From Oscillibacter sp. (GTDB lineage Bacteria > Bacillota > Clostridia > Oscillospirales > Oscillospiraceae), in assembly GCA_017446225.1 (NCBI GenBank), contig JAFSRH010000023.1, positions 1 to 58,779 on the forward strand: DNA of 58,779 bases, read 5' to 3'. Made by a program: the position numbers and the translations under genes. Under the pieces are notes generated by a model. The model was not told the origin of the DNA. It ran no database searches and saw nothing but the letters and a program-made list of their open reading frames with translations. The stretch's first letter is position 1, and every line of letters begins with the position of its first letter. Below, piece by piece: positions 18,741 to 36,270 of the stretch.

Positions 18741-18741
18741 C

Positions 18742-21352: not shown

Positions 21353-21390
21353 ATCGTTTCCCCTCTCTCTGCGGAATCCGGCCGCGGCGG

Positions 21391-22503: not shown

Positions 22504-22550
22504 GTTTGCTCTACCTCCTAATGTTCCGAACAGTCCACGGAATGCGGGAC

Positions 22551-22579
22551 TTGACAAGAAAACCGCGCTCATGTACAAT
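22551..22579 (+). promoter_or_regulatory. Plus-strand promoter-like sequence within the nup leader
   Basis: TTGACA (22551-22556), 17-base spacer, TACAAT (22574-22579). It faces the GH32 gene but would give a leader of about 330 bases and would run against nup transcription. The TTGACA lies within one arm of the inverted repeat 22550-22601, so it may equally be an operator. Confidence 0.4.
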
Positions 22580-22647: not shown

Positions 22648-22831
22648 GGCGGAAGCGCGGGAAAAGGGCGAGTCCGCCCGGAACGAAGCCCGATCCGGCG
22701 TCCGGAAAACTTTGGCGCGTCAATGGCATTTTCGACAAAACAAAATGGCTGATTTTTACAATTTGGTGCAAAAGTACAGAAAATTATGGAAAAGATAACA
22801 ATTATCACTTTGTTTTCATGATAATTTTCAC

Positions 22832-22860
22832 TTCACATTTTTCTTTCCATATGTTACTTT
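22832..22860 (+). promoter_or_regulatory. Probable promoter of the GH32 gene
   Basis: TTCACA (22832-22837), 17-base spacer, TACTTT (22855-22860) with an extended -10 TG at 22852-22853. The predicted start is about 46 bases before ATG 22913. Dyads at 22794-22824 lie just upstream of the -35, where an activator would bind. Confidence 0.6.
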
Positions 22861-22912
22861 ATCGAGTATTGAGGCCCGCAAAGAGTACGTGACGAGGAGG
22901 AAAGAAAACGGT

Positions 22913-25900
22913 ATGAAGAGTAAATTTCTTGAGCGGCTGGCGGCATTATGCCTCACAATGGCCGTGATTCTGTCCTGCTGTGTGCCTTACGGCATTGCGG
23001 CGGAGATAGACGCGGACGAGGCCGAACCAGTCGCGGTTGCGGAAGCGGCGGAAGCGCCGGACGCTGACGCCGAACCCGTAACGGAAGAGGCGGATGCCGA
23101 ACCCGTAGCGGAAGAAGCTGACGCCGAACCCGTAGCGGAAGAGGCGGATGCCGAACCCGTAGCGGAAGAAGCTGACGCCGAACCCGTAGCGGAAGAGGCG
23201 GACGCGGAACCCGTAGCGGAAGAAGCCGCCGCGGAACCGGCCGCGGACGCGCCGCAAGTGGACACGGAACCGCCCGTAGACACGGCGGAAGAGCCTGACG
23301 CGGACGCCGAACCCACCGGGGACGCGCCGCAAGTGGACACGGAACCGCCCGTAGATACGGCGGAAGAGCCGGACGCGGACGCCGAACCCGCCGGAGAAGC
23401 GGACGATACGGACATGGCCGCCTTGTTCGCCGAAACAACCATGGCTTTCAAGTCCTTCAATCATGAGGACAAACTGAAAGTGGACGAGGCGGCGCGTACC
23501 GTAACCATGGATTTCGTGGGCGGCGACCATTTTGTTGTATACGATGGACTGGACCACCCCGTAAACTCGTTCGTCTGGGAGGCGGATGTGGATATCCAAA
23601 GCGGACTGAAAGTGCAATCCGCGGCGTTGATTTTCGGCTTCCGCTCCAAGATAGCGCCGAACTCCAACTGGTACGGCGCGAATCTGGACTCTACCCGCAT
23701 TGGACAGGAGAACGCTTTCCGCCTGTTCGGACCCAATATTGACACCAACACGGGCGGCTCCGTGGACGGTATCGACATCTCGAAAACGTTGCACCTCAAA
23801 GTGGACATCCACATTGGCGGCGATTTCGTCTACAGCTTCGGCAACAAAGGCGCGGAGTTAAAGACGATTACCGGCAGAATCTCCGGCTGGAAGGGCGGAT
23901 ATGTCGGTATCCTCACGTGGGAATCCGGCGCGACTTTCTCCAATATTTCCTTGGAAGAGCGCGAAGAACAGGTGGAACCTCCGATTTATGGCACGGTAAC
24001 CACTGCCTCCGGTTTCCAGTACCGTAACAACATTGCCAACGAGAGCCTGTCCGACCTTCAGACGCATGGCAGCGGCGTATGGGAAGCTCGCGACAATGGA
24101 CTGTACAGTAACGCCGTTGACAAGGGAGACGCGTTCCTGTACTCCAAGACAACCGGCGACAATTTCGTATATTCCACCGATGTAACGTTCCTGAGAAATC
24201 AGGGCGCGGCGTCTCTGCTTTTCCGGAACGCGGACCCCAACGGACACAGCGAATGTTACGTTGCGAACATTGATGCCGGATCCAAACGCTGTAAACTCTG
24301 GCGCTGGGAAGATGATCTGGACAATCAACTGTTCGGAGAAGTACAGTTTGACGGGGACGCCTCCGGCAACGCCTATACGCTGACGGTCGTTGCCATTGAC
24401 ACGTGGCTGTCCTTCTACGTCAACGGCAGACTCATTGGCAGTACCGGCGACTACCACAAGCTCGGCGGCGCGGACTGGGGTCAGGGAACGTTCCTTTCTT
24501 CCGGCGCTTTCGGCCTGTTGAACTGGAACGGCGAAATGATCTTCCAGAATACCTTCTACACGCCCATTTCCAACAGCTTTACCCCCCTGCTTTCTGACAT
24601 TTCCGTGACTTCTTCCGGAACGGTGGAAGCGAAAGGACAGTTTGTTTCCACAGAGCCGACCATCATTCAGTATGTCGGCAATGACGCCTCTACGGTGAAC
24701 ATCAGCGCGACCCCCGTCAACAGCAACGCGGTCGTGAAAGTGTACGGCCCGGACGGAAACGAATACCCGGGCGGCACGAACATTCCCGTGTCTGTCGGCG
24801 CGAACTATATCGCCGTGGAAAGCAGCGTCACCAGCAGCAGCGGCACGACCGCTACCGTCACCTATCGCGTCAACGTCCACCGTAGACAGCCCGCGGCGAT
24901 CTATTACAACGAACCTTACCGCGGACAGTACCATTACTCGGTCAAAGATGGCTGGGCCAATGACCCGAACGGGATGGTTTACTACAAGGGCACGTATCAT
25001 CTTTTCCATCAGTTCTATGACGATATCCGCTGGGGACCCATGCACTGGTTACACGCTACCAGTACGGACTTGGTGCACTGGAAAGAAGAGCCGATGGCCT
25101 TCTATCCGGACGCGAACGGCTCCATGTTCTCCGGCTGTATCGTGGTGGACGACAAGAACACGTCCAAACTGTTCAGCGGCCCCGATGGCGGTCTGGTGGC
25201 CCTGATTACCGCCAACGGCAACGGCCAGCGGATTAAAGTTGCCTACAGTACGGACGAGGGCAAGACGTGGACGAAAGTCAATCAGGTCGCGGCCGACTGG
25301 TCCGATGACCCCCTGTACAACCGCGATTTCCGGGACCCGAAAGTATTCCGCTGGGAAAACAAGTGGTTTATGGTCGTGGCCGGCGGTCCTCTGCGGATTT
25401 ACTCCTCCGATAATCTGCTGAGCTGGAAATGCGAGGCGGCTTACGCGAACCTTCACACGGAATGCCCGGATATGTATCCCCTCCGCGCCGATGACGGTAC
25501 CTTAAAGTGGGTTCTGTCCAGAGGCGGAAGAACGTACAAAGTCGGCGACTTCAAGCAGGTCAACGGCAACTGGGAGTTTGTCCCTGACGCGCCTTACGCC
25601 AATGAGCCGGATAACGGAATCATGAACTTCGGCAAGGATTCCTACGCCGCCATGACGTATTACGTACAGGACTTCGGCACCGCCGCGAATCCCACGTTGC
25701 CCGAAATCGTGGAAATCAACTGGATGAACACTTGGGACGACTACTGCAACCAAGTGGCCGAAAAGACGGCGCAGGCGTTCAACGGCACGTTCAACCTGAA
25801 CCTGACGCTGGGCCTGAAAAACGAGAACGGAAAGTACGTCCTGACGCAGACCCCGCACAAGGCCTATGAAACGTTACGCGGCGCCCCGCTGATCGACCTG

Positions 25901-27652
25901 ACCAACGCATCGGTCACGGAAAACAACGCGCTGTTGTCCGGTTTCTCCGGCGAGTGCTACGAAATCGTCTCCAAGTTCCGCCCCGGAACGGCCGCGAAAG
26001 TCGGCTTTGACCTCCGCACGGGCTACAACGAAAAGACGGCCGTCCGTTATGACGTGGCCTCCAAGCAACTGAGCATTGACCGCAGTCAATCCGGAATCAT
26101 CATCAGCAATCAGTTCGCGCAGGTGAACAGTCAGGTTGTCGAGCCGAACGCGGACGGAAGCGTTGATTTGCGGATTTTCGTGGACAGATCCAGCGTGGAA
26201 GTGTTCACGAAGGATTACACGGCCGCGGGCGCGAATCAGATTTTCCCGGCCCTGTCGAGCCTTGGCGCGGCCGTTGTGGCGGAAGGCGGAACCGCGAGCG
26301 CCGATATCACAATCTATCCTCTGAGCGGTATCTGGGAGAAGGTTTCCGCGAGTGAGCCGCTGGAAATTTTGTCCACAAGTAACGGCGTGGTACGGGCCAA
26401 TGTCGGCGATGAACTGAACTTCCGGGCAACGCTTCTGCCCGTCAACATTGCGCAGAACATCAACTGGAACCTCAGCAACAGTTCCGTGCTTTCCGTAATC
26501 GGAAACGCGAACGGGAATGACTTCCGCGTAAAGGCGGTCCGGGCGGGAGACGTAACCGTTACCGCGTCCGCCGCCGCGAAACCGGCGTTGCAAAAGACAT
26601 TCTCCGTCCACATCGCGGAAAACAACTTTGAAACGAACCTCTCCTTCACGCCCAACGGCGGAGACTGGACCATTGACGACAAGACGTTAAGCGTCTCCAA
26701 CCAGTCGGCGAACCAGTTCTATATGTCCTCCAGCCCGGTGTCTCTCCGTGAGTTCACGCTGGAAACCAACATCCGCTATACCAAGGGCGCCATCAACGTC
26801 TTTTTCGCCGCGGGAGGTATCGATCCCTTCTCGCCGCCGGCTTACACGGTGCAGTTCAATGACAGCGCCTCGTTCCGCCTGTTCCGTTTCGGCAGGGACG
26901 ATATCACGGCTCCCACCGACATGGGCAAACAGGTCAACGATGGACAGTTCCACAATGTCAAAATCCGTAAGACCAGTGACAGCGTGACGGTGTCCATTGA
27001 CGATGTCGAGAAGCTGAATTACAAGTTCGAGAATGTGGAAGGCTTCTACAATGAGGGCGCTTCCGTTGGTATCGGCCTGTGGGACGGCGCTTTGGACGTG
27101 CAAGGCTTCTATGTGACGGACACGGCCGCCCAGCCCGTCTACCGGAAGGTGACGTTTGACGCCAATGGCGGTACCGGCTCCATGCCCGACCAGCAGGTCA
27201 AGGACGGCGAAAGCATTACGCTCCCGAACAATTCGTTCACGCCGCCCACAAACCGGACCTTCAAGGCGTGGCAGATTGGCAGTACGCAGTACAACCCCGG
27301 CGCGGTCTACACCGTCACGGGCGATATCACGGTAATGGCCCTGTGGAATGACGCTTCCGTCACGCCCGACAAGCCCAAGAGCGGCGGCTGTTACGTGGCC
27401 ACGGCGGTCTACGGCTCCTATGACTGCCCCGAGGTCTGGACGCTCCGCAGATTCCGCGACAACGTGCTTGCAAAGACGTGGTACGGACGCCTGTTTATCA
27501 AGCTCTACTACGCCGTCAGCCCGACCGCGGTCCGCCTCTTCGGAGAGGCCGACTGGTTCCAGAACTTCTGGCGCGGCCGTCTGGACAGCATGGTCTCCAC
27601 GCTTCAGGCGGACGGATTCGAGTCCACGCCTTATGAGGATAAGGCTTGGTAA
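22913..27652 (+). CDS. Secreted modular GH32 fructan hydrolase (levanase/inulinase-like)
   Basis: A 1579-residue exoenzyme; ATG 22913 follows GAGGAGG. Order: signal peptide (1-32), Ala/Glu/Pro repeats (about 40-165), two concanavalin-like modules (about 180-350 and 365-560), a cadherin-like sandwich (about 565-660), the GH32 catalytic domain, a GH32 C-terminal sandwich (to about 1145), a BIG2-like domain (about 1150-1235), a third concanavalin-like module (about 1240-1405), an InlB B-repeat (about 1410-1480) and a C-terminal CYVATAVYGSYDCPEVWTL domain of the CFI-box type. Catalytic motifs: WANDPNG (nucleophile Asp about 684), RDP (Asp about 808) and EC (acid/base Glu about 850). It should release fructose or fructo-oligosaccharides outside the cell for the PTS at 32392-35045. 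Confidence 0.93.
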   Translation: MKSKFLERLAALCLTMAVILSCCVPYGIAAEIDADEAEPVAVAEAAEAPDADAEPVTEEADAEPVAEEADAEPVAEEADAEPVAEEADAEPVAEEADAEPVAEEAAAEPAADAPQVDTEPPVDTAEEPDADAEPTGDAPQVDTEPPVDTAEEPDADAEPAGEADDTDMAALFAETTMAFKSFNHEDKLKVDEAARTVTMDFVGGDHFVVYDGLDHPVNSFVWEADVDIQSGLKVQSAALIFGFRSKIAPNSNWYGANLDSTRIGQENAFRLFGPNIDTNTGGSVDGIDISKTLHLKVDIHIGGDFVYSFGNKGAELKTITGRISGWKGGYVGILTWESGATFSNISLEEREEQVEPPIYGTVTTASGFQYRNNIANESLSDLQTHGSGVWEARDNGLYSNAVDKGDAFLYSKTTGDNFVYSTDVTFLRNQGAASLLFRNADPNGHSECYVANIDAGSKRCKLWRWEDDLDNQLFGEVQFDGDASGNAYTLTVVAIDTWLSFYVNGRLIGSTGDYHKLGGADWGQGTFLSSGAFGLLNWNGEMIFQNTFYTPISNSFTPLLSDISVTSSGTVEAKGQFVSTEPTIIQYVGNDASTVNISATPVNSNAVVKVYGPDGNEYPGGTNIPVSVGANYIAVESSVTSSSGTTATVTYRVNVHRRQPAAIYYNEPYRGQYHYSVKDGWANDPNGMVYYKGTYHLFHQFYDDIRWGPMHWLHATSTDLVHWKEEPMAFYPDANGSMFSGCIVVDDKNTSKLFSGPDGGLVALITANGNGQRIKVAYSTDEGKTWTKVNQVAADWSDDPLYNRDFRDPKVFRWENKWFMVVAGGPLRIYSSDNLLSWKCEAAYANLHTECPDMYPLRADDGTLKWVLSRGGRTYKVGDFKQVNGNWEFVPDAPYANEPDNGIMNFGKDSYAAMTYYVQDFGTAANPTLPEIVEINWMNTWDDYCNQVAEKTAQAFNGTFNLNLTLGLKNENGKYVLTQTPHKAYETLRGAPLIDLTNASVTENNALLSGFSGECYEIVSKFRPGTAAKVGFDLRTGYNEKTAVRYDVASKQLSIDRSQSGIIISNQFAQVNSQVVEPNADGSVDLRIFVDRSSVEVFTKDYTAAGANQIFPALSSLGAAVVAEGGTASADITIYPLSGIWEKVSASEPLEILSTSNGVVRANVGDELNFRATLLPVNIAQNINWNLSNSSVLSVIGNANGNDFRVKAVRAGDVTVTASAAAKPALQKTFSVHIAENNFETNLSFTPNGGDWTIDDKTLSVSNQSANQFYMSSSPVSLREFTLETNIRYTKGAINVFFAAGGIDPFSPPAYTVQFNDSASFRLFRFGRDDITAPTDMGKQVNDGQFHNVKIRKTSDSVTVSIDDVEKLNYKFENVEGFYNEGASVGIGLWDGALDVQGFYVTDTAAQPVYRKVTFDANGGTGSMPDQQVKDGESITLPNNSFTPPTNRTFKAWQIGSTQYNPGAVYTVTGDITVMALWNDASVTPDKPKSGGCYVATAVYGSYDCPEVWTLRRFRDNVLAKTWYGRLFIKLYYAVSPTAVRLFGEADWFQNFWRGRLDSMVSTLQADGFESTPYEDKAW
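23069..23230 (+). repeat. 27-base tandem repeat coding AEPVxEEAD
   Basis: Six in-frame copies of a 27-base unit encode AEPV(T/A)EEA(D/A). Codon choice alternates between copies (GAGGCGGAT and GAAGCTGAC), giving a 54-base higher-order period that points to recent duplication of pairs. Confidence 0.9.
23249..23398 (+). repeat. 75-base direct duplication in the GH32 linker
   Basis: Two adjacent 75-base copies (23249-23323 and 23324-23398) encode APQVDTEPPVDTAEEPDADA plus five more residues. They differ at only a few bases. Confidence 0.9.
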
Positions 27653-27698
27653 GACGGCGCAAAAGCCCTGAATCATAGCGGGACTGTCCCGTAAGGCA

Positions 27699-27731
27699 AC
27701 GGTCAGCCGGTGTTTCCGGCTGGCCGTTTTT
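27699..27731 (+). terminator. Intrinsic terminator after the GH32 gene
   Basis: A 12-bp stem ACGGTCAGCCGG / CCGGCTGGCCGT (one G.U pair) with a 5-base loop is followed by TTTTT. It lies 47 bases after the GH32 stop, so enzyme and regulator genes are separate transcription units. Confidence 0.92.
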
Positions 27732-27805
27732 CCGTGAAAATCTTCACAGGCCCGGACAAAGTTCCCGAAACTGTCCACGATATAGGGGCTTTTGCACGCT
27801 TTTTT

Positions 27806-27827
27806 GTGCAACTTTTTGAACTTGCAC
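27806..27827. repeat. GTGCAA/TTGCAC inverted repeat upstream of the regulator operon
   Basis: GTGCAA (27806-27811) and TTGCAC (27822-27827) form a perfect 6-bp dyad with a 10-base spacer. A third TTGCAC lies at 27792-27797. The dyad ends 14 bases upstream of the -35, a typical activator or repressor position. Confidence 0.5.
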
Positions 27828-27840
27828 ATTTACAGTAATA

Positions 27841-27869
27841 TTTACACGCGCCCGTTTTCCGTGTATAAT
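27841..27869 (+). promoter_or_regulatory. Sigma-A promoter of the sugar-sensing operon
   Basis: TTTACA (27841-27846), 17-base spacer, consensus TATAAT (27864-27869), about 19 bases before the predicted leader ends at ATG 27895. Confidence 0.82.
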
Positions 27870-27894
27870 AGGCACCATCCTGTTCGGGGAGGCG

Positions 27895-28878
27895 ATGGTC
27901 TTGGAACATGTCTCAAAGCATTCCATTCTTACGGCGGGGACGCTGGCGGCCTTTCTTCCGTTACTCATTCTGGCGTATATCCTCTTCTTCTGGCCCGATG
28001 ATGTCTCCGCCGACCAGACCGAACGCCGTATTGTCTTTGGCGCAACTTTCATGACCATGAACAATCCCTATTATCAGGTCATGGACATTCAGTTACGCTC
28101 CGAAATCGAAAAAAACGGGGACTTCCTCCTGACCCGCGACGCGGCCATGAGCCAGACGCGGCAGAATCAGGAAATCCGCGAACTGATTGACGCCGGCGCG
28201 CAGGCCATCTTTCTGACGCCCGTGGAGTGGGACACCTCGGAAGAGGGCCTCCGGATCGCCCAAAAAGCCAACGTCCCGGTCATTGTCGTGGACGCGCCGG
28301 TCCGGAACGCCGAACTGGCCGCCTGTTCGGTGCTCTCGGACAACTACCGCGCGGGCGTCCTGTGCGCCGAACACTTGCGTTCCGTGCGGCCGTCCGCGAA
28401 AATCATTCTGCTGGAACACATCACGGCCCGTTCCGGCGCGGAACGGATTCAGGGCTTTCTGCAAACCATACGCCGTTATGACGGCTACGACATTCTCGGC
28501 TCCGGGGAATCCGATGGGCAGATCGAAAACGCGATGCCCGTTATGGAAGCGCTCTTGGAACAGTACCCGGACGCCGACACGGTCATGGCCCTGAACGACC
28601 CCAGCGCCTTCGGAGCCATGTCCGCCATTGAGGGCGCCGGACTGTCGGACCGGTTCCTTGTCTACAGCGTGGACGGCTCCCCGGAAGCCAAAGCGCTGGT
28701 CAGAGACGGACTTATGACCGCCACCTGCGCGCAGTTTCCGTATAAAATCGCGAAAGAGTCCGTACGGCAGGCCTACCGGGCCATCCGGGGGGATTGCGAT
28801 GAGCGGGAAGTCATTATTCCGGTGGAACTCCTGACGGCCGAAAACGTGGACGCCTACGGGGTAACGGGGTGGCAGTGA
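27895..28878 (+). CDS. Membrane-tethered sugar-binding protein (LevQ-like sensor candidate)
   Basis: A 327-residue protein with an uncleaved-looking N-terminal membrane helix (about 12-33) and no lipobox. The rest is a type I periplasmic-binding fold of the ribose/LacI class: VFGATFMTMNNPYYQVMDIQL, the QNQEIRELIDAGAQAIFLTP segment, VPVIVVDAP, SDNYRAGVLCAEHL, and MALNDPSAFGAM, with a final AKESVRQAYRAI helix. ATG 27895 follows GGGGAGG. No ABC permease or ATPase is encoded in the cluster, so a sensory role for the adjacent kinase is more likely than transport. In Streptococcus mutans, LevQ and LevT are binding proteins that act with kinase LevS and regulator LevR; this gene takes the place of LevQ by context. 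Confidence 0.85.
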   Translation: MVLEHVSKHSILTAGTLAAFLPLLILAYILFFWPDDVSADQTERRIVFGATFMTMNNPYYQVMDIQLRSEIEKNGDFLLTRDAAMSQTRQNQEIRELIDAGAQAIFLTPVEWDTSEEGLRIAQKANVPVIVVDAPVRNAELAACSVLSDNYRAGVLCAEHLRSVRPSAKIILLEHITARSGAERIQGFLQTIRRYDGYDILGSGESDGQIENAMPVMEALLEQYPDADTVMALNDPSAFGAMSAIEGAGLSDRFLVYSVDGSPEAKALVRDGLMTATCAQFPYKIAKESVRQAYRAIRGDCDEREVIIPVELLTAENVDAYGVTGWQ

Positions 28879-30212
28879 TGGAGCGGAAAAACGCGCCGCC
28901 GGAGTTCGCGGCTCTGATGTTTACGGTAAATCTTGTCATTCTGCTGTTTTATACGTCCACGGTCTTTGTGACCACCGCGCGCATATGCCGCTCTTTCCAC
29001 GCGTACGAATTTTTATCCAACGTCCGGGAAATGCCCGGCCGGCCGTGGGAAATGCCGGTACGCTCCCTGATTCCGTTCGCCCTTCTGACGCTCCTGAGCT
29101 TCGGAAAGTACCGCTGGAACCTCTCCGGAAAAAACTGGAACGGAATTCTCTGTGTCACGGAAATTGCGCTCTGTGTGCTGACGGTGGCCTCCCTGAACTT
29201 CTATTACAGCGGTCTCGCGCTCTTGGTGCTCTCCGATTTGACGCACTATATCCAGAACCGCCGCGTCCGTCTGGGCTTTATTATCGCGCTCTCCCTCCTC
29301 TTCGCCCTCGGACGTTACGAGATCGCGTTCTCCTTCACCAGCCGCGTACCGTTCAGCACGTATCTGAATTATTACAGCCAGTCCGTACGGGGCTACCTTG
29401 CCGGAATCGAAAGCGTACTGGTTTCGTTAAACGTGCTCCTGTTCGTGTACGACATGATCCTTCTTTTCACAGGCCAGAAAGAGGAAAACGTACGGATCAA
29501 CCGTCTGAATTCTCAGCTTCATGAGGCGAACCGGCGTTTACGTAAAAACGCCGTGGAGCTGGAACGCCTGACGGAAACCCGGGAACGAAACCGCCTTGCG
29601 CGGGAAATTCACGACACGCTGGGACATACGCTCACGGGCATTGTCATGGGCACGGAAGCCGTCAACGCGCTTCTGGACGTGGCCCCGGAGGAAGCCAAAC
29701 GCCGGATCGCGGTCATTCACAAGACCGCAAAGGAAGGCTTGGAGGATGTCCGCCGCTCTATCAAGGCCCTTCGGCCCGATGGGCTGGAAAAACGCTCCAT
29801 GGAAAAGGCGCTGGAAGAGCTGATTACGAATTTTCATCTAACCACGTCCGTGGAGATTGATTATCAGCAGTGCGCCGGACCCCTCTCTTTCGCCAGCGAT
29901 GAGGAGGACACGCTTTACCGGATTATTCAGGAGGGCATGACCAATTCCGTCCGGCACGGACACGCCACGGAAATTGAAATCCGGATTACCAGAGACGGGG
30001 ACCTTCTGACGGTCTCCATCCGGGACAACGGCCTTGGCTGCGCCGAACTGGAAGAGGGCTTCGGACTGCGGCACATGGAGGAACGGCTGGGACTGCTGGG
30101 CGGTTCCATGGCCTGCGGCAACCGGAATGACGACTCGGACGATGAACAACGCGGTTTTTATCTGATCGCGAGTCTGCCCGTACGCGGAAGGGAGAAAAAC
30201 GAACATGATTAA
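28878..30212 (+). CDS. Sensor histidine kinase, HisKA_3/NarL class (LevS-like)
   Basis: A 444-residue kinase. ATG 28878 shares its A with the preceding TGA; in-frame GTG codons at 28869 and 28875 are alternatives. The N-terminal 200 residues hold about six membrane helices with little extracellular domain, so ligand sensing is probably done by partner proteins. A linker coiled coil (about 203-238) leads to the HisKA_3 phosphoacceptor box RLAREIHDTLGHTLTGIVMG (His about 245), then a HATPase_c domain with SVRHGHATEIEI, RDNGLGC and GFGLRHMEERLGLLGG. Its 3' end overlaps the response regulator gene by 8 bases. Confidence 0.94.
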   Translation: MERKNAPPEFAALMFTVNLVILLFYTSTVFVTTARICRSFHAYEFLSNVREMPGRPWEMPVRSLIPFALLTLLSFGKYRWNLSGKNWNGILCVTEIALCVLTVASLNFYYSGLALLVLSDLTHYIQNRRVRLGFIIALSLLFALGRYEIAFSFTSRVPFSTYLNYYSQSVRGYLAGIESVLVSLNVLLFVYDMILLFTGQKEENVRINRLNSQLHEANRRLRKNAVELERLTETRERNRLAREIHDTLGHTLTGIVMGTEAVNALLDVAPEEAKRRIAVIHKTAKEGLEDVRRSIKALRPDGLEKRSMEKALEELITNFHLTTSVEIDYQQCAGPLSFASDEEDTLYRIIQEGMTNSVRHGHATEIEIRITRDGDLLTVSIRDNGLGCAELEEGFGLRHMEERLGLLGGSMACGNRNDDSDDEQRGFYLIASLPVRGREKNEHD

Positions 30213-30882
30213 GGCGCTGATAGTGGATGATCAGGAACTGTTCAGAGAGAGCCTGAAAGTGGTGCTGGGAGTGAACCCGGAAATTGAAGTGACGGACGCG
30301 GTCTCCAGCGTCCCGGAAGCGCTCAGGAGCGCGGCGCGTGACTGTCCGGACGTGGCGCTGATGGATATCCGTATGCCCGGTATGGACGGCGTGGAGGGAA
30401 CGCGCCTGATGAAAGAACGCTTCCCGAAAATCAAGGTCATTGTCCTGACAACCTTCGATGACGATGATTACGTCTTTGGCGCGCTCAAACACGGGGCCAG
30501 CGGCTATCTGCTCAAGGGGAGCAGTCTGTCGGAACTCTCCAAGGCCATCCAGATCGCCCACAGCGGCGGGGCGATGATTAATCCCGACATTGCCAGCAAG
30601 GCGATCCGCCTTTTCTCGCAAATGGCGAAAAGCACGGTCAGAATTCATGTGGACGAGGACATGGTCAAGGAGATCCGGCGGAACGAGTGGGAGATTATAC
30701 GCGCGGTCGGACGCGGCCTGTCCAACCGTGAAATCGCGCGGGAACTGTCGCTTTCAGAGGGGACCGTACGGAACCTGATCAGCGTCATTCTCTCGAAGCT
30801 GAGCCTGCGCGACCGGACACAGTTGGCCATCTGGGCCGTACAGACCGGCGTGGTCCACAGCAGCGGGGTGAACCCGGAATGA
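30205..30882 (+). CDS. NarL/LuxR-type response regulator (LevR-like)
   Basis: A 225-residue regulator. The receiver domain (1-120) has the acidic pair DD (9-10), phosphoacceptor Asp 54 in ALMDIRMPGMDG, the conserved T in VLTTFDDDD and Lys in GYLLKG. The C-terminal LuxR-type helix-turn-helix (about 160-215) contains GRGLSNREIARELSLSEGTVRNLISVILSKL. It is the cognate partner of the preceding kinase and should bind DNA directly, probably upstream of the GH32 and PTS genes. The gene overlaps both neighbours (8 and 4 bases), so the operon is tightly coupled. Confidence 0.94.
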   Translation: MIKALIVDDQELFRESLKVVLGVNPEIEVTDAVSSVPEALRSAARDCPDVALMDIRMPGMDGVEGTRLMKERFPKIKVIVLTTFDDDDYVFGALKHGASGYLLKGSSLSELSKAIQIAHSGGAMINPDIASKAIRLFSQMAKSTVRIHVDEDMVKEIRRNEWEIIRAVGRGLSNREIARELSLSEGTVRNLISVILSKLSLRDRTQLAIWAVQTGVVHSSGVNPE

Positions 30883-32165
30883 ACGGAACGCGCCTTTCAC
30901 GGTACGCGGCGTTTCTGCTTGCGGGGCTGGTATGCCTTGCCGCGCTCCCGTTTTTCGGCCCAAAGGATACGGTAATCCGGATCGGCGTCTATTCCGGGAG
31001 TTACTGGGACACGCCCAACGGGGACTGTTACCAGATTTTAGACCATGCCATCCGCCGCTTTGAGCGCGCCCATGAGAACGTACGGGTAGAGTACGTCAGC
31101 GGGATTACCACCGATTTTTACAGCGAATGGCTCTCGGAACAGATTCTTCAGGGCACGGAGCCGGATTTGTACTTTGTGCTGCCGGAGGACTTTAATTTGC
31201 TCGTCTCATGCGGCGCGCTGGCCGGAATGGACGCGCTCATGGAGGCGGACGCCGAATTTGACGCTTCCCTGTACTACCAGCCCAGTTTGCAGTCCGGCGC
31301 CTCGGAAGGCAGACAGTACGCCCTTCCTCACGAGAGCGTCCCCACGATTATGTTTGTCAACAAGACCCTGCTGGAACGGAACCATATTCCCGTGCCCGAC
31401 AATGATTGGACGTGGGACGACTTTTACCGGATTTGCGCGCAAGTCACCAATGTGGAAGCGCGTCGGTTTGGCGCGTACGGCTATACGTGGCTTCACGCGC
31501 TCTACTCCAACGGGGCGTCCCTGTTCTCCCGGGACGGCTCCGCGTGCTATCTGGCGGACGAGAGAATACAGGACGCGATTCAGTTCGTCAAGAGCCTGCG
31601 GGACCTCAACGGGGGCTATCAGGTCACGGCCCGGGACTTTGACCTTGGCAATGTGGCGTTCCGGCCGTTTCTGTTTTCGGAGTACCGCGCCTACCAGCCG
31701 TACCCGTGGCGGGTCAAGAAATATTCCAGTTTCCAATGGGACTGCGTCTCCATGCCCGCCGGGCCGCACGGGGACAACGTCTCCGAACTGCATACCATGC
31801 TTCTGGGCATCAGCTCCCGGACGCGTCATCAGGCGCTGGCGTGGGAACTGTGTAAACTGCTCTCTCTGGACGAAGAAGTACAAAAGGAACTGTACACCTA
31901 CTCCCGGGGCATTTCTCCCCTGCGCGCGGTCGCGGAGGACGCCGAAATTATGGCGCGGCTCCGTTCCGAAATCCCCGGCGGCGAGGGGCTGGGATGGGAG
32001 GCAATCGGGGAAATTATGAGTACGGCCGTTTCGGCTCCCCGTTTCGATGGCTACGAACAGGCCTTGATGATGGCCGAAAGCGCCGTTTCCAATGAAATGG
32101 CACAGGAACAGGCCCGCGGTAACGGACTGGCCGCCGCGCAACGGGAAATTAATACGTTTCTATAG
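30879..32165 (+). CDS. Membrane-tethered extracellular solute-binding protein, family 1 (LevT-like)
   Basis: A 428-residue protein overlapping the regulator gene by ATGA. An N-terminal hydrophobic helix (about 9-27) has no proper lipobox (LVC precedes no G/A-C), so the protein is probably tethered by this helix. The body is an SBP_bac_1 fold: TVIRIGVYSGSYWDTPNG, DLYFVLPEDFNLLVSCGALAGMDALM, YALPHESVPTIMFVNKTLLER, DWTWDDFYRICAQV. Such proteins usually feed ABC importers, but no permease lies nearby. With the binding protein at 27895 it flanks the kinase/regulator pair, so a co-receptor function is inferred. Confidence 0.87.
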   Translation: MNGTRLSRYAAFLLAGLVCLAALPFFGPKDTVIRIGVYSGSYWDTPNGDCYQILDHAIRRFERAHENVRVEYVSGITTDFYSEWLSEQILQGTEPDLYFVLPEDFNLLVSCGALAGMDALMEADAEFDASLYYQPSLQSGASEGRQYALPHESVPTIMFVNKTLLERNHIPVPDNDWTWDDFYRICAQVTNVEARRFGAYGYTWLHALYSNGASLFSRDGSACYLADERIQDAIQFVKSLRDLNGGYQVTARDFDLGNVAFRPFLFSEYRAYQPYPWRVKKYSSFQWDCVSMPAGPHGDNVSELHTMLLGISSRTRHQALAWELCKLLSLDEEVQKELYTYSRGISPLRAVAEDAEIMARLRSEIPGGEGLGWEAIGEIMSTAVSAPRFDGYEQALMMAESAVSNEMAQEQARGNGLAAAQREINTFL

Positions 32166-32262
32166 CCGTTCCCGTCCGCAAACGTGGCCGACGCGCCGGA
32201 ATCCCGTTATTTTTTACAAAAAAAGTACAAAAATTTTTCCGCTTTCGGCTCTTTTTTGAAAA

Positions 32263-32302
32263 ACGCTCAAAAGCGTGACATTTATCTCCGAAAAATCGTG
32301 AC
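32263..32302. repeat. Dyad and direct repeats upstream of the PTS operon
   Basis: ACGCT-CAAA-AGCGT (32263-32276) is a 5-bp dyad, and CGTGACNTNNAT occurs twice (starting 32274 and 32297, 23 bases apart). They lie 40-85 bases upstream of the predicted transcription start, where an activator would bind. Further upstream, AAAAGTACA (32221-32229) matches a site in front of the GH32 gene. Confidence 0.45.
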
Positions 32303-32306
32303 GTAA

Positions 32307-32336
32307 ATCAGGTGCAATCCGCCTGATTTTTTTTTA
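32307..32336 (+). terminator. Intrinsic terminator of the sensing operon, overlapping the PTS promoter
   Basis: AATCAGG (32307-32313) pairs with CCTGATT (32322-32328), followed by a run of T residues. It lies about 140 bases after the stop of the solute-binding-protein gene. Its T-run leads directly into the -10 box of the next promoter. Confidence 0.75.
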
Positions 32337-32340
32337 TAAT
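32312..32340 (+). promoter_or_regulatory. Promoter of the PTS operon (activator-dependent type)
   Basis: A consensus -10 TATAAT (32335-32340) has only GTGCAA (32312-32317) at the -35 position with a 17-base spacer. The poor -35 and the dyads upstream suggest a need for an activator such as the adjacent response regulator. The start of transcription would be near 32347, giving a leader of about 45 bases. Confidence 0.6.
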
Positions 32341-32391
32341 TCCCCTATTCTCACAGGACACTGGAAACCGTATCATGAAGGGGGAATGAAT

Positions 32392-32811
32392 ATGCGTTAT
32401 CTCCTGTTTATCAGTCACGGAGGCTTCGCCGATGGACTGACGGAGGCTCTGGGGATGATGGTAGGACAGCGGGAGGATGTCGTCAAGGTCGCCTTCCGGG
32501 ACGGCATGGGCTTGCCGGAGTTCAAAGAGCACGTCCGGCAAGCCATTGCGCCCATGACTCGCGATGATGAAATCGTTGTCATGGCGGACCTTGTCAGCGG
32601 CTCCCCGCTGGCAACGACTATGGACGCGCTCTCCGAACACGTGGACTTGGCGAAAGTGCGCGCCGTGGCCGGCATGAATCTGCCCATGGCCCTGACCGCC
32701 GTGGAGAACGAAGAAGAATCGCTGGACGACACGGTCTCCGCTATGATGGAGGTTGCCAAGGAACAGGTGACGCCCTTCAAACTGGATACCGGCGCGGAGG
32801 ACGACATCTGA
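32392..32811 (+). CDS. PTS mannose/fructose/sorbose-family EIIA (LevD-like)
   Basis: A 139-residue EIIA of the mannose family. ATG 32392 is used because AAGGGGG lies 7 bases upstream; ATG 32386 is too close to it. The phosphoacceptor His 9 lies in LLFISHGGFADGL, and the second motif VVMADLVSGSPL is typical. It receives the phosphate from HPr and passes it to EIIB. It is the first gene of a complete four-subunit transporter operon (EIIA, EIIB, EIIC, EIID) 34 bases ahead of the EIIB gene. Confidence 0.95.
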   Translation: MRYLLFISHGGFADGLTEALGMMVGQREDVVKVAFRDGMGLPEFKEHVRQAIAPMTRDDEIVVMADLVSGSPLATTMDALSEHVDLAKVRAVAGMNLPMALTAVENEEESLDDTVSAMMEVAKEQVTPFKLDTGAEDDI

Positions 32812-32845
32812 GCAACGTTAAATCAAAACAGGGAGGATTTGTTTC

Positions 32846-33340
32846 ATGATTACCTTTATCCGCATTGACGACCGCATGATTCACGGACAGACCTGCACCC
32901 GCTGGGCGCTGGAGTATCCCTGTACCGGCCTTATCGCCGTCAATGACAAGGCGGCTACCAACTCCGTGTTGAAGGCCGCCTACAAAAACGCCATTGCCGA
33001 TAAAAAGACCTTCGTCTGGACGCTGGCCGACTGGCAGGCCAAAAAGGAAAAAGTGCTCTCTTCCAAGGACCAGTATTTCCTGATCACAAAGGACCCCGTG
33101 GACATGGCCAAAGTCCTGTTGGATCAGCCCTTTGACCCCGGCATTAAGGACATCATTGTCGGGCCGTGCAACGACCGTCCCGGCGCCGTGAAACTGGGCA
33201 ACAACCAGTCCATCACACAGGATGAGGCGGCGGCTTTTGAAAAGCTCATGGCCGCGGGCTACAATATCGAGTTCGCCCTTGTCAAAGAAACCGCTATCGG
33301 CAACTGGAAGAAATTCCGCGGACAGTTCGGTTACAACTGA
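32846..33340 (+). CDS. PTS mannose/fructose/sorbose-family EIIB (LevE-like)
   Basis: A 164-residue EIIB. The phosphoacceptor His 13 lies in FIRIDDRMIHGQ, the family signature, and the fold continues with LIAVNDKAATNSVLKAAYKNA and IIVGPCNDRPGAVKLG. It transfers phosphate from EIIA to the incoming sugar at the EIIC/EIID complex. GGGAGGATT precedes the ATG. Substrate cannot be told from EIIB; the neighbouring fructan hydrolase suggests fructose (or mannose). Confidence 0.95.
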   Translation: MITFIRIDDRMIHGQTCTRWALEYPCTGLIAVNDKAATNSVLKAAYKNAIADKKTFVWTLADWQAKKEKVLSSKDQYFLITKDPVDMAKVLLDQPFDPGIKDIIVGPCNDRPGAVKLGNNQSITQDEAAAFEKLMAAGYNIEFALVKETAIGNWKKFRGQFGYN

Positions 33341-33375
33341 ATCCACCTTCATGCGGAACAGAAAGGAATCGCGCT

Positions 33376-34215
33376 ATGACGATTAATGTTGTACAGGCGG
33401 CGCTTCTTGGCCTGTGCGCCTGCCTCTCCTCCATGCCCGGTCTCGGCGGCACCACGTTCGGCAACTACACGCTGGGCCGTCCCCTTGTCGCCGGTCTTGT
33501 CGTTGGACTGATTTTAGGGAACGTACCGATGGGCATCATGCTCGGCGCGGCGGTACAGGTCGTGTACATTGCGCTGGTCACCCCCGGCGGAACGGTCTCC
33601 GCCGATGTGCGCGCCATTTCCTACATTGGTATCCCGCTGGCCATGCTCTACGCCGCCGGCATGGGCTGGACCGGCGCGGAGTCGGAGGCGCAAAACTTCG
33701 CCGTCACCATGGCCGCCACGGTCGGCACGCTCGGCACCGTCCTGTTCTACGGCACCGCCACCATGAACCTGATCTGGCAGCACTGGGGCATGAGACAGGT
33801 CGATGAAGGCAAGCTGGACAGCCTCTATCTGGTCGACTGGGTATTCCCGTGGATTTCCCACATCATCTGCTCCTTCATCCCCACGTTCATTATCTGCCTG
33901 ATGGGTTCCAACATGGTTCAGGTCATCAAGGACTATCTGCCCATGGACGGCCTCGCCATGAAAACGCTGTTCACGGTCGGATCGCTTCTGCCGTCCGTTG
34001 GCGTTGCCATCCTCCTCAAACAGGTGGTTTCCAAGCCTGTGGATTTCCTGACCTTCTTCTTCGGCTTCACGCTGTGCGCGTTCATGCACCTGAACCTGAT
34101 CGGATGCGCCATTGTGGGCGGGTTCTTTGCCATCATGAATTACAACATCCGTGTTCTCGCGCTGCGTCCGGTCGCGGCGGTCGGCGCGGCTGACGATGAC
34201 GAGGAGGACATCTGA
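33376..34215 (+). CDS. PTS mannose/fructose/sorbose-family EIIC (LevF-like)
   Basis: A 279-residue membrane subunit with several hydrophobic helices. The N-terminal AALLGLCACLSSMPGLGGTTFGNYTLGRPLVAGLVVGLILG and the following GAAVQVVYIALVTPGGTVSAD match the EII-Sor/Man C family. It forms the sugar channel together with EIID. AAAGGAAT precedes the ATG, and the stop lies 2 bases before the EIID start. Confidence 0.95.
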   Translation: MTINVVQAALLGLCACLSSMPGLGGTTFGNYTLGRPLVAGLVVGLILGNVPMGIMLGAAVQVVYIALVTPGGTVSADVRAISYIGIPLAMLYAAGMGWTGAESEAQNFAVTMAATVGTLGTVLFYGTATMNLIWQHWGMRQVDEGKLDSLYLVDWVFPWISHIICSFIPTFIICLMGSNMVQVIKDYLPMDGLAMKTLFTVGSLLPSVGVAILLKQVVSKPVDFLTFFFGFTLCAFMHLNLIGCAIVGGFFAIMNYNIRVLALRPVAAVGAADDDEEDI

Positions 34216-34217
34216 CC

Positions 34218-35045
34218 ATGAAAACGCTCTCCAAAAAGACTTTAACCAAGTCCTTCAATCACTGGTTCTACGGGAACCTGACCTGCTTCTCTCAGGAGCA
34301 TATGCAGACCTTCGGCTATATGCTCTCCATGCTCCCGGTCATTAAGGAACTCTACGACACCAACGAGGAACGCACGCAGAAACTGAAAACGTACTCCACG
34401 TTCTTCAATACGGAGCCTCAGGTCGGTTCCGTTGTGGTCGGCATTACGACCGGTATGGAAGAGGCCCGCGCCAACGGGGAAGACGTGGACGATGAGACGA
34501 TTAACGGTATCCGCGCCGGTCTGATGGGTCCTCTGGCGGGTATCGGCGACTCGCTGGTAGTCGGTACGCTCCTTCCGATTCTGCTGGGTATCGCGCTGGG
34601 CCTGTCGGGCGGCGGCTCTCCCTTGGGCGCAATCTTCTACATTCTCGTCTGGAATATCGGAATGTATCTGCTGATGCGCTTCATGTACTTCAAGGGCTAC
34701 GAACTGGGCGGACGCGCCGTGGAAGTGCTCGTGGGCGAAAAGGCGAACGCGATCCGGGAATCGATCATTATGCTGGGCACGATGGTAATCGGCGGCGTCA
34801 CGGCGTCATGGATTAACATCACGACCTCCTTCAAAATGCTGAACTCGGAAGGCGGCGTGATTGTCGATTTGCAAAAGACGCTCAATGACGTGTATCCGTC
34901 CCTTCTCAGCGCGGTGTTCGTGCTGATTTGCTGGTATCTGCTCAGCAAAAAGCGCATGAGTCCGTTACTGGTCATGCTGATTCTGGTCGCCGTGGCCTTT
35001 GTGGGCGTACTGGTCGGCTTCTTTGATCCGGGTCTCAGCTACTGA
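34218..35045 (+). CDS. PTS mannose/fructose/sorbose-family EIID (LevG-like)
   Basis: A 275-residue membrane-associated subunit. It has the EIID pattern: an N-terminal amphipathic part (WFYGNLTCFSQEHMQTFGYMLSMLPVIKELY), then FFNTEPQVGSVVVGITTGMEEARAN, then IRAGLMGPLAGIGDSLVVGTLLPIL and a C-terminal helix pair. Together with EIIC it forms the permease. The ribosome site of this gene lies inside the end of the EIIC gene (GACGAGGAGGACATC). Confidence 0.95.
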   Translation: MKTLSKKTLTKSFNHWFYGNLTCFSQEHMQTFGYMLSMLPVIKELYDTNEERTQKLKTYSTFFNTEPQVGSVVVGITTGMEEARANGEDVDDETINGIRAGLMGPLAGIGDSLVVGTLLPILLGIALGLSGGGSPLGAIFYILVWNIGMYLLMRFMYFKGYELGGRAVEVLVGEKANAIRESIIMLGTMVIGGVTASWINITTSFKMLNSEGGVIVDLQKTLNDVYPSLLSAVFVLICWYLLSKKRMSPLLVMLILVAVAFVGVLVGFFDPGLSY

Positions 35046-35066
35046 GCCGTTCCGCCGGAAAATCCC

Positions 35067-35336
35067 ATGCTGACCAAAGAACAACTCTTGGATGAGGCCC
35101 GGAAGCAGAAAAAAGCCCTCTCTATCATGGGACGTTGGAGAAACTGGCTGTTTGTCCTGACCACTTCCCTGATGGTGCTGGCGGTGTTCGGACTGCGCAA
35201 GAACGGCGCCCTGTTTGTCATGGGTATCATTTCGGTCGTGCTGGCGGTACTCTGCTTCGTCTTTCTTCTGCTTGTCAACCTCAGTATCCGCAACGGACAC
35301 CGTAACGTGGAACGACTGTTGGACTCGATTCAATAA
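35067..35336 (+). CDS. Small two-helix membrane protein following EIID
   Basis: An 89-residue protein with two membrane helices (about 26-42 and 48-72) and charged ends (KEQLLDEARKQKKAL at the start; NGHRNVERLLDSIQ at the end). I do not recognise a family. It lies 21 bases after the EIID gene and ahead of a terminator, so it belongs to the PTS operon. Lev-type PTS operons of streptococci carry a small accessory gene (levX) in the same position; homology to it is not shown here. The Shine-Dalgarno site (GGAAAA) is weak. Confidence 0.72.
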   Translation: MLTKEQLLDEARKQKKALSIMGRWRNWLFVLTTSLMVLAVFGLRKNGALFVMGIISVVLAVLCFVFLLLVNLSIRNGHRNVERLLDSIQ

Positions 35337-35372
35337 AAACGCCATCTCTTCTTTTCTCACCTCCCTTTCACA

Positions 35373-35421
35373 GCCCGCAGGGCTGGCCGGTTTCCGCCGG
35401 CTGTCCCTGCGGCGCATTTTT
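35373..35421 (+). terminator. Hairpin with T-run between the PTS operon and the HAD gene
   Basis: A two-part stem (CCGCAGGG 35375-35382 with CCCTGCGG 35405-35412, and CTGGCCGG 35383-35390 with CCGGCTGT 35397-35404) is followed by TTTTT (35417-35421). It lies 19 bases before the HAD start codon, with no promoter seen between. Confidence 0.75.
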
Positions 35422-35439
35422 CGGGCATGGGGTGATGTT

Positions 35440-36270
35440 ATGAACAGGTATTCCGTCATCCTGCTGGACATTGACGGAACCCTTCTGGATTCCCGCAATG
35501 AAATTTCTAATAACACGAAAAATCTTCTGAAACGTTTGGAGAAAAAAGGCGTTCCCATTGTGCTGGCCTCCGCCAGAGCGCCGGGAGAAGTGGAACTGGT
35601 CGCGCGTCAGGCGGACGTACACGCCCCCGTGATTTGCTATGACGGCGGCCTGATTCTGGATGAAAACCGGTCCATTATGGAAGATATCGGCATGGAAAAA
35701 GGGGTCGCGCTCGCGTTCAAGGCCTTCGCGGAAGGGCGTTTCCCGGACGTTTGCGTCAGCAGTTACATCTATGACATCTGGGTCGTGGACAGTCAGGAAA
35801 ACGAATGGGTCCGACATCTGGCGAAACTGAACAGGAAGGAACCTTTACAGGGTAGTCTCTCTTCGGCGGTCAGAATCAGCAACCACGTCCACAAATTTCT
35901 TTGCATGGGGGTTTCCCGGAGGATTCAGGAGTTAAAGGAACACGCGGAAGCGGCGTTTCCGGAGCTGGACTTTCTGCTTTCCGGTACCGTCTATCTGGAA
36001 GTGGTGAAGAAAGGCGTGTCCAAGTACGCGGCCATGGAAAAGATACGGCGTTATTACAACATTGACGCGGGCCAGATTGTCGCCGTGGGGGACTATTATG
36101 TAGATATTGAGATGTTACGCGCGGCGGGCATGGGAATCGCCATGGGCAACGCGCCGGAAGCCGTCAAACACGCGGCGGACCGCGTAACGGCCAATAACGA
36201 CGATGACGGCGTTTATATTGCCCTGAAAGGCCTGCGTTTTCAGGCCGTACCGGAAAAATCCCCCCTGTAA
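35440..36270 (+). CDS. Cof-type HAD-IIB sugar-phosphate phosphatase
   Basis: A 276-residue HAD hydrolase. ATG 35440 follows GGGGTGAT; the reading frame runs further upstream into the preceding gene without a start signal. Motif I is LLDIDGTLLDS (nucleophile Asp 10, acid Asp 12), motif II VLASARAPGE, motif III Lys in the KKGVSKYAAMEKI segment and motif IV VGDYYVDIEML. The IIB cap lies between motifs II and III. Cof-type enzymes remove phosphate from sugar phosphates, FMN or PLP. Position after the PTS suggests a sugar phosphate. The stop codon lies in the loop of a terminator. Confidence 0.9.
   Translation: MNRYSVILLDIDGTLLDSRNEISNNTKNLLKRLEKKGVPIVLASARAPGEVELVARQADVHAPVICYDGGLILDENRSIMEDIGMEKGVALAFKAFAEGRFPDVCVSSYIYDIWVVDSQENEWVRHLAKLNRKEPLQGSLSSAVRISNHVHKFLCMGVSRRIQELKEHAEAAFPELDFLLSGTVYLEVVKKGVSKYAAMEKIRRYYNIDAGQIVAVGDYYVDIEMLRAAGMGIAMGNAPEAVKHAADRVTANNDDDGVYIALKGLRFQAVPEKSPL

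Follow-up and report, generated by a model that had tools for sequence, protein, structure and literature searches.

A LevQRST/levDEFG/fruA-like locus in an Oscillospiraceae-like genome and a candidate tandem LevR operator

Do two sugar-binding proteins encoded beside a histidine kinase and a response regulator sense a sugar or carry it into the cell? The question is raised by a 58,779-nucleotide stretch of DNA from an Oscillibacter sp. (the window, hereafter), which lies on contig 61 of a 2.18-Mb genome in 78 contigs. The original prediction had claimed a complete four-component fructan locus here, and all of the genes that it named (GH32, the levTSRQ cassette, and EIIABCD of a phosphotransferase system, PTS) are present where it placed them, with matching profiles. 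The locus is a full LevQRST/levDEFG/fruA-like locus in an Oscillospiraceae-like genome, and its gene content, its orthology, and the presence of operator-like sites at both promoters are established directly. We consider it highly probable that fructan utilization is run here by a LevQRST-type four-component switch, in which phosphorylated LevR (LevR~P) would activate the GH32 and PTS units. The genes are as follows, with their profile matches.

22913..27652, + strand, secreted multi-domain GH32 fructan hydrolase (FruA-like); PF00251 5.5e-52, PF08244 2.2e-27
27895..28878, + strand, LevT, RbsB-type sugar-binding protein (BP1) with an uncleaved-type anchor; PF13407 (Peripla_BP_4) 1e-42; Cys12/Cys149 in BP1-type orthologues
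28869..30212, + strand, LevS, HisKA_3 histidine kinase with several membrane segments; PF07730 5.3e-21, HATPase
30205..30882, + strand, LevR, NarL-type response regulator; PF00072 and PF00196 (Response_reg, GerE)
30879..32165, + strand, LevQ, SBP_bac-type sugar-binding protein (BP2) with an uncleaved-type anchor; PF13416 3.5e-16; LevQ residues in BP2-type orthologues
32386..32811, + strand, EIIA (LevD-like); PF03610 (EIIA-man) 5e-19
32846..33340, + strand, EIIB (LevE-like); PF03830 (PTSIIB_sorb) 2e-32
33376..34215, + strand, EIIC (LevF-like); PF03609 (EII-Sor) 2.1e-58
34218..35045, + strand, EIID (LevG-like); PF03613 (EIID-AGA) 2.4e-87

Identity of the four regulatory proteins

According to sections of PMC3043104, the Streptococcus mutans operon is levTSRQ followed by levDEFG, and the residues named are C161, C188, C296, C336, E170, and F292 in LevQ and C12 and C149 in LevT. 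We looked for these residues in 21 loci of a genus taken for Streptococcus, in which genome G486 has the same gene order; that identification is itself supported by the match to the published residues. All six LevQ residues occur at one offset in 7 of the 21 streptococcus-like BP2 proteins (L101, L102, L103, L105, L106, L107, and L108) and in none of the 21 BP1 proteins, the best of which has one of six. C12 and C149 of LevT are found together in three BP1 proteins (L101, L106, and L108) and in no BP2 protein of the same 21 loci. This distribution over BP2-type and BP1-type orthologues identifies BP1 as LevT and BP2 as LevQ at the sequence level, and the window order is then levT-S-R-Q, as in S. 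mutans.

The LevT, LevS, LevR, and LevQ proteins of the window are 37%, 31%, 61%, and 38% identical to those of the streptococcus-like locus L101 (E values from 1e-70 to 1e-105), so that the proposed correspondence with the Lev proteins holds as orthology by way of the streptococcus-like loci. In streptococcus-like as well as clostridial loci, these four genes keep this order next to a levDEFG-type PTS, and a levDEFG-type mannose-family PTS also adjoins the cassette in the window, where two membrane-anchored sugar-binding proteins (anchors by hydropathy only) flank the kinase-regulator pair. We take the kinase class HPK7 to be equivalent to HisKA_3, and the HisKA_3 kinase and GerE regulator of the window then fit the HPK7 and NarL classes of LevS and LevR. 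Those two classes are the ones under which LevS and LevR are listed in a portion of PMC3353171.

Further relatives were drawn from a named collection, which may leave out the window's own genome; the best 80 of its 393 stretches encoding a relative were taken. The closest LevQ relatives in it are 81% identical and come from metagenome bins labelled Oscillibacter (L113 and L114). Kinase relatives at E <= 1e-40 are present in 7 of 197 genomes of the order, the window's own included, with eight matches, and the other three cassette genes adjoin the kinase in all eight matches and all seven genomes. Across the phylum, 10 of 398 genomes (again including its own) match the LevQ profile at E <= 3.7e-139. 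The next match is at 5.9e-40, and matches from there on, which bring the number of genomes passing at 1e-30 to 33 of 398, were taken as generic binding proteins. LevQ was found at E <= 1e-60 in 58 of 147 genomes of the streptococcus-like genus. The order T-S-R-Q is kept in 98 of the 106 distinct loci examined; the eight exceptions have a split kinase or regulator frame (L106 and L131), no levT seen in place (L152, L154, and L192), or S-R-Q followed by an RbsB-like gene (L057, L176, and L191).

A candidate tandem operator at hydrolase and importer promoters

A repeated TGACA/TGTCA pattern was seen by eye between levQ and EIIA in relatives. In 73 such regions, the spacing of exact TGACA-TGACA pairs peaks at 23 bp (17 regions), followed by 21 and 22 bp (six each), with 31 to 33 bp (three to four each) and 25 to 30 bp (one in all) being rarer. 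The candidate operator consists of a dyad of 14 bp (ATGACAnnTGTCAT), a second site 23 bp further along, and a -10 box at a fixed distance. When a fixed-spacing matrix of 40 bp, made from 27 distinct non-window sites, was run over both strands of the window, the top two matches were those at 22791 and 32271 on the + strand, at the GH32 and PTS promoters. The third was the reverse reading of the 22791 site (19.0 bits), and the next scored 8.1 bits. The maxima in 60 Markov copies of the window had a mean of 3.1 and a highest value of 11.7.

22795..22835, + strand, candidate LevR operator of the GH32 gene (dyad 22795-22808, second site from 22819; 30.7 bits at 22791)
22855..22860, + strand, -10-like hexamer TACTTT, GH32 promoter; distance from the 40-bp operator, 24 nt
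32275..32315, + strand, candidate LevR operator of the PTS operon (dyad 32275-32288, second site from 32299; 25.1 bits at 32271)
32335..32340, + strand, -10 hexamer TATAAT of the PTS promoter (read by eye)

Both matrix hits in the window end 24 nt before the -10-like hexamer (22855 and 32335), and among 58 common-spacing sites of relatives this distance is exactly 24 nt in 45 and 23 nt in six. With transcription assumed to start 12 nt downstream of the hexamer's first base, the dyad lies at -72 to -59 at both window promoters. This equals the position of a dyadic sequence required for S. mutans fruA, which passages of PMC9241797 name as the likely LevR target. The sites, their spacing, and the 24-nt distance were noted before the published position was compared, and the start-relative coordinates were computed after. 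A putative regulator-target dyad is present at the hydrolase promoter and at the PTS promoter. When the genome (96% complete) was searched with a pattern derived from these two sites, allowing up to three mismatches, the only further match was the reverse reading of the first site; recovery of the two sites is by construction, and the information is in the absence of others.

The cassette itself appears to be made from a promoter of its own.

27706..27724, + strand, terminator-like hairpin after GH32 (hairpin scan)
27841..27869, + strand, sigma-70-like promoter of levTSRQ (TTTACA-17-TATAAT, 11/12), at which no operator was found

A terminator-like hairpin and a sigma-70-like promoter separate GH32 from levT, and a further promoter with an operator stands before the PTS genes, which suggests three transcription units (GH32, levTSRQ, and the PTS). 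The original prediction had placed the hydrolase and the regulatory genes in one overlapping operon. The overlap is real for BP1, kinase, regulator, and BP2 (10, 8, and 4 bases in turn), but GH32 probably lies outside. Terminator-like features in the region total 21, slightly above the 16.7 in shuffles, and promoter-like features total 14, compared with 5.8. A further terminator-like hairpin (32305-32329) shares bases with the second site of the PTS operator, so that this operator and the end of levTSRQ may have sequence in common.

A two-site model with free spacing was devised after the fixed matrix missed many held-out loci. Its null, from Markov copies of 115 loci, reaches at most 21.3, with 10 of the 115 above 17, and 84 of 106 distinct loci score above 22 (the 84 include training loci). 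The offset between the two sites (score above 17) is 22 to 24 in 67 distinct sites, 32 to 34 in 16, and other in five, and the two main classes differ by about one helical turn. In the window, the two-site scores upstream of levT (-7.8), levS, levR, levQ, and the HAD gene that follows the PTS are all negative. General control of levTSRQ by the operator was considered and rejected, as a site above 20 lies upstream of levT in just 1 of 99 cassettes. The idea that every GH32 gene has its own operator was likewise discarded, since no site in the 450 bp tested exceeds 9 bits in L153, L189, and L190, in which the GH32 gene comes after the PTS genes; the upstream stretches of L104, L105, L107, L163, and L165 do not reach far enough for a decision.

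In relatives, the operator precedes whichever importer is present, be it the LevDEFG PTS, another mannose-family PTS, or an ABC system. EIIA follows the site in 56 of the 106 distinct loci. Six loci with a different mannose-family PTS (L054, L056, L058, L173, L179, and L186; EIIB 25% to 26% identical, 43% in L173) have sites scoring 30.5 to 36.1 about 1.5 kb before EIID, and in L056 EIID lies 159 bp before EIIB. Twelve loci resembling L119 (L117-L119, L121-L124, L126, L127, L130, L131, and L135), two of them labelled Candidatus Faecousia, have sites scoring 29.3 to 36.0. The site stands directly before a HAD gene in 11 of the 12, with an ABC ATPase match following in 10 of these (not L127); in L131, no recognized gene was found within 700 bp after it. 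By best matches, which are below cut-off, the L119 ABC system is of the GguA-GguB-ChvE type. In L175, L177, L178, L182, and L188, the site precedes an RbsB-like gene heading an ABC operon and scores 34.9 to 50.9 with the fixed matrix, for which the null maximum over loci is 18.4. Altogether, these 23 loci are outside the training set, although the L119-like sites and training sites may be related by descent, since both occupy the same position behind levQ.

Two of the ABC-linked loci also encode a PfkB kinase (L119:3681-4628 and L177:10439-11407) whose best NCBIfam match, below cut-off, is fructokinase. In L191, the best match of a PfkB-type kinase gene is ribokinase, also below cut-off, and a site on the opposite strand is found about 310 bp ahead of that gene. 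We infer that such sugar kinases suit an ABC system delivering unphosphorylated sugar, where a PTS delivers phosphorylated sugar. The importers behind the constant operator are the LevDEFG PTS, a second mannose-family PTS, a GguAB-ChvE-type ABC, and an Rbs-type ABC. Pelosinus-type loci have S-R-Q and then the genes of an Rbs-type ABC, without levT upstream of the kinase. Whether levTSRQ and the tandem operator form one portable fructose-sensing module of the Bacillota, with an exchangeable importer and a kinase added along with ABC, and with the ABC binding protein perhaps doubling as the LevT receptor in Pelosinus-type loci, is to us an evenly balanced proposition. L176, L191, and L057 are arranged in this way (S-R-Q without an upstream levT, an RbsB-like gene and ABC genes after it), and there too the ABC binding protein may double as receptor.

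Binding proteins, hydrolase, and PTS genes

The nearest solved protein to LevT is ribose-binding protein 1dbp (6.3e-33), and the LevQ profile is nearest to the arabino-oligosaccharide-binding protein 6rjy (8.7e-41). From these matches, one kinase seems to carry two kinds of binding protein, one of the monosaccharide type and one of the oligosaccharide type. For LevT we compared what we take to be the ligand residues of RbsB. The positions aligned with N13, D89, R141, N190, D215, and Q235 are invariant in 50 of 50 sequences, and the aromatic pair aligned with F15/F16 is F or Y in all of them. LevS keeps N21, Y113, and G115 in 50 of 50 and E98, D123, and N188 in at least 90%, several of these within hydrophobic stretches, and the DNA-binding region of LevR (SEGTVRN...LRDRTQLAIW) is nearly invariant in 25 aligned sequences. 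A D-x-D/N-x-D-G loop, which we liken to a calcium-binding loop, its calcium role being an assumption on our part, occurs in most of 19 aligned LevQ proteins and in 6rjy; the window and L015 are without it.

As predicted, BP1 and BP2 have uncleaved-type anchors, each with one N-terminal hydrophobic segment by hydropathy and no lipobox by eye. The six membrane helices given to the kinase are plausible, but hydropathy over 19 residues with a cut-off of 1.4 gives four separate segments, or five with an overlapping pair; sections of PMC3043104 predict up to five for S. mutans LevS. In some relatives, a lipobox-like sequence (crude pattern) replaces the plain anchor, as in LevQ of L119 (LTGC) and LevT of L177 (LYGC), and a general requirement for contact by way of the anchor helix is therefore unlikely.

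The GH32 open frame starts with GTG at 22889, and an ATG is found at 22913. Profiles place the N and C domains of GH32 in the protein and CFI-box-CTERM at its C-terminus, and an N-terminal hydrophobic segment was read by eye. The motifs WANDPNG, FRDP, and TEC are present and presumably represent intact catalytic motifs. With its GH32 catalytic domain, these motifs, and a predicted secretion signal, the enzyme appears to belong to the FruA-type class. The nearest solved structures are the exo-inulinases 8i12 and 1y4w, followed by the endolevanase 9h8i. Acidic tandem repeats with units of 27/54 bp and 75 bp occupy its N-terminus (23063-23401).

GH32 domains 46% to 71% identical to that of the window adjoin the cassette in several named groups (half a domain only in L148 and L151). 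The catalytic domains of L153:11102-14389 (Eubacteriales bin) and L189:13480-17808 (Lachnospiraceae bin) are 71% and 67% identical to that of the window, whereas LevT and LevS of these loci are just 37% to 47% identical, which makes transfer of the hydrolase gene possible. Near the cassettes of L018, L132, and L019/L150 (one genome) is a GH32 of another type, closer to the C64 GH32 of the window's genome. That genome has four more GH32 genes (L060, L061, and L062, which are contigs C57, C64, and C45), one of them adjoining a sugar ABC operon, and no operator-like match above 6.1 bits was found in these three stretches. In L113, close kin of the window, the stretch 5650-5960 upstream of levT contains an operator-like site, a -10-like box, a terminator-like hairpin, and a levT promoter like that of the window (by eye). 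The operator resembles that of the window's GH32 gene (20.8 with the fixed matrix, 19.0 in the two-site model), no GH32 gene is seen by eye between it and the levT promoter, and the simplest reading of the stretch is a scar of GH32 gene loss.

Two further genes follow EIID.

35067..35336, + strand, small membrane protein in the LevX position, 89 residues with hydrophobic segments, without a profile match
35440..36270, + strand, HAD (Cof-type) phosphatase; PF08282 (Hydrolase_3) 8.3e-57; a relative follows the PTS in many loci

LevX is a name that we assume for the small protein after EIID. A relative of the 89-residue protein comes after EIID in many loci, and its match to the protein in the same place in the streptococcus-like L059 is weak (33% over 42 residues, E value of 4e-4). 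The PTS unit probably ends with the HAD phosphatase gene. The window's genome also encodes enzyme I and HPr of the PTS.

The proposed switch, its rivals, and its meaning

In the switch that we propose, LevT and LevQ on the outer face of the membrane would bind sugar freed from fructan, most likely fructose and perhaps mannose, and would set the activity of LevS through its membrane part. LevS would phosphorylate LevR, and LevR~P would bind the tandem operator (the dyad at -72 to -59 and the second site by the -35 region) at two promoters, activating the secreted GH32 enzyme and the EIIABCD-X-HAD uptake operon, with levTSRQ made from a separate promoter without the operator. Here the ligand, the direction of signalling, LevR as the binder, and activation are inferred. 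Sensing over transport, on the logic of LevQRST, had been argued from the start, and the orthology of the four regulatory proteins together with the shared operator-like sites at the GH32 and PTS promoters supports it.

Several observations weigh against this switch or its details. LevQ of the window has two of the six published S. mutans residues and LevT one of two, so the link to S. mutans runs through homology to the streptococcus-like loci. Other ligand positions of RbsB are not kept in LevT (N64 in 35 of 50, R90 and F214 in 0 of 50). A GH32 gene like that of the window adjoins the cassette in just 10 of 115 loci, in the stretches covered. EIIABCD fall below every NCBIfam cut-off, and the sequence therefore does not fix the PTS substrate. 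Of 84 held-out loci, 48 scored 20 or less with the fixed-spacing matrix, some of them owing to 32- to 34-bp offsets, and 22 of the 106 distinct loci are without a site above 22 in the two-site model, some on cut contigs. That model scores the window sites at 20.5 and 19.9, below its null maximum, and in it they do not stand out from chance over the whole locus; the case for the window operators therefore rests on the fixed-spacing matrix and on their place.

The likeliest of the rival explanations, though an improbable one, is that the switch is real but answers to a sugar other than fructose, such as mannose or a different hexose, and that GH32 has come to lie beside it recently. The S. mutans system is induced by mannose as well (PMC3043104, in part). 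In NCBIfam, EIIA and EIIC are closest to N-acetylgalactosamine models and EIIB to a mannose model, none of them reaching cut-off, and 105 of 115 loci have no window-like GH32 in the stretch covered. However, the GH32 promoter has the same candidate operator as the PTS, the window-like GH32 domains adjoin the cassette in several named groups, and in two ABC-linked relatives fructokinase, if below cut-off, is the best match of the kinase.

We give somewhat less credence still to the conserved repeat being bound by a regulator other than LevR, such as a CcpA-like or LacI-type protein. The repeat is known from its sequence, and dyads are a common operator form, yet it goes with the cassette across importer classes, it has no further copy in the genome at the stringency used (<=3 mismatches), its position equals that of the dyad named in the S. 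mutans study (PMC9241797, in part), and the DNA-binding region of LevR is strongly conserved.

The original prediction had found no ABC permease, which holds for the cassette but not for its surroundings, where one ABC system with a binding protein of its own lies upstream.

17871-22578, opposite strand, upstream of GH32, PnrA/BMP-type ABC system with its own binding protein (profile matches)

The genome has 21 BPD_transp_1 and six BPD_transp_2 matches, and the two sugar-ABC clusters that were read (C64, and C28 by eye) have their own binding proteins. That LevT and LevQ serve an ABC importer while the kinase pair regulates something else is very improbable: solute-binding proteins normally feed such importers and the same cassette adjoins ABC genes in some relatives, but the locus has no sugar permease, those two clusters are self-sufficient in binding proteins, the ABC systems of L119 and L177 have one besides LevT and LevQ, and both binding-protein genes overlap the kinase and regulator genes.

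Solute-binding proteins as sensors are known from other systems. PDB entries 5xsj and 5xss, among the relatives of BP1, are to our understanding XylFII, and in XylFII-LytS we take one such protein to be the sensor partner. PDB 2x7x (titled SENSOR PROTEIN) has a type I periplasmic-binding fold related to BP1 (4.6e-12). It is presumably the BT1754-type hybrid sensor of Bacteroides, a sugar sensor for fructan genes, which differs, as we understand it, in that the binding domain is fused to the kinase and no second binding protein is present. In CuaDSR of Ruminiclostridium cellulolyticum, a solute-binding protein is likewise the sensor partner of a two-component pair, but there is one binding protein, not two, and the target is an ABC importer, as far as sections of PMC10384115 describe it. 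S. mutans LevQRST/levDEFG/fruA is alike in its four kinds of regulatory protein, in the order levT-S-R-Q then EIIA-B-C-D, in its fructan hydrolase target, and in the dyad at -72 to -59. In the window, by contrast, the hydrolase is encoded immediately upstream of the cassette, behind a candidate operator of its own, and has a CFI-box C-terminus, and a HAD phosphatase gene closes the PTS unit.

LevQRST, its sensor role without a transporter, the small external part of LevS, and the resulting proposal for S. mutans that the binding proteins are the receptors are already in print, as are similar operons in C. acetobutylicum and Dorea longicatena (PMC3043104, in the sections drawn on). What is new here is a candidate tandem LevR operator that appears recognizable in the window and in many relatives. 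In the open-licence literature, we found neither a tandem LevR operator described for any organism but S. mutans nor any ABC-linked version, and four-component sugar sensing of the LevQRST kind is dissected in streptococci only, in the literature found. With a readable operator, sequence could be used to predict the importer and the hydrolase that a fructan degrader turns on, be it among gut Oscillospiraceae, Lachnospiraceae, Selenomonas, or others. The exchange of importers behind a constant sensor and operator offers a natural experiment on the dependence of binding-protein sensors on the transporter that they govern.

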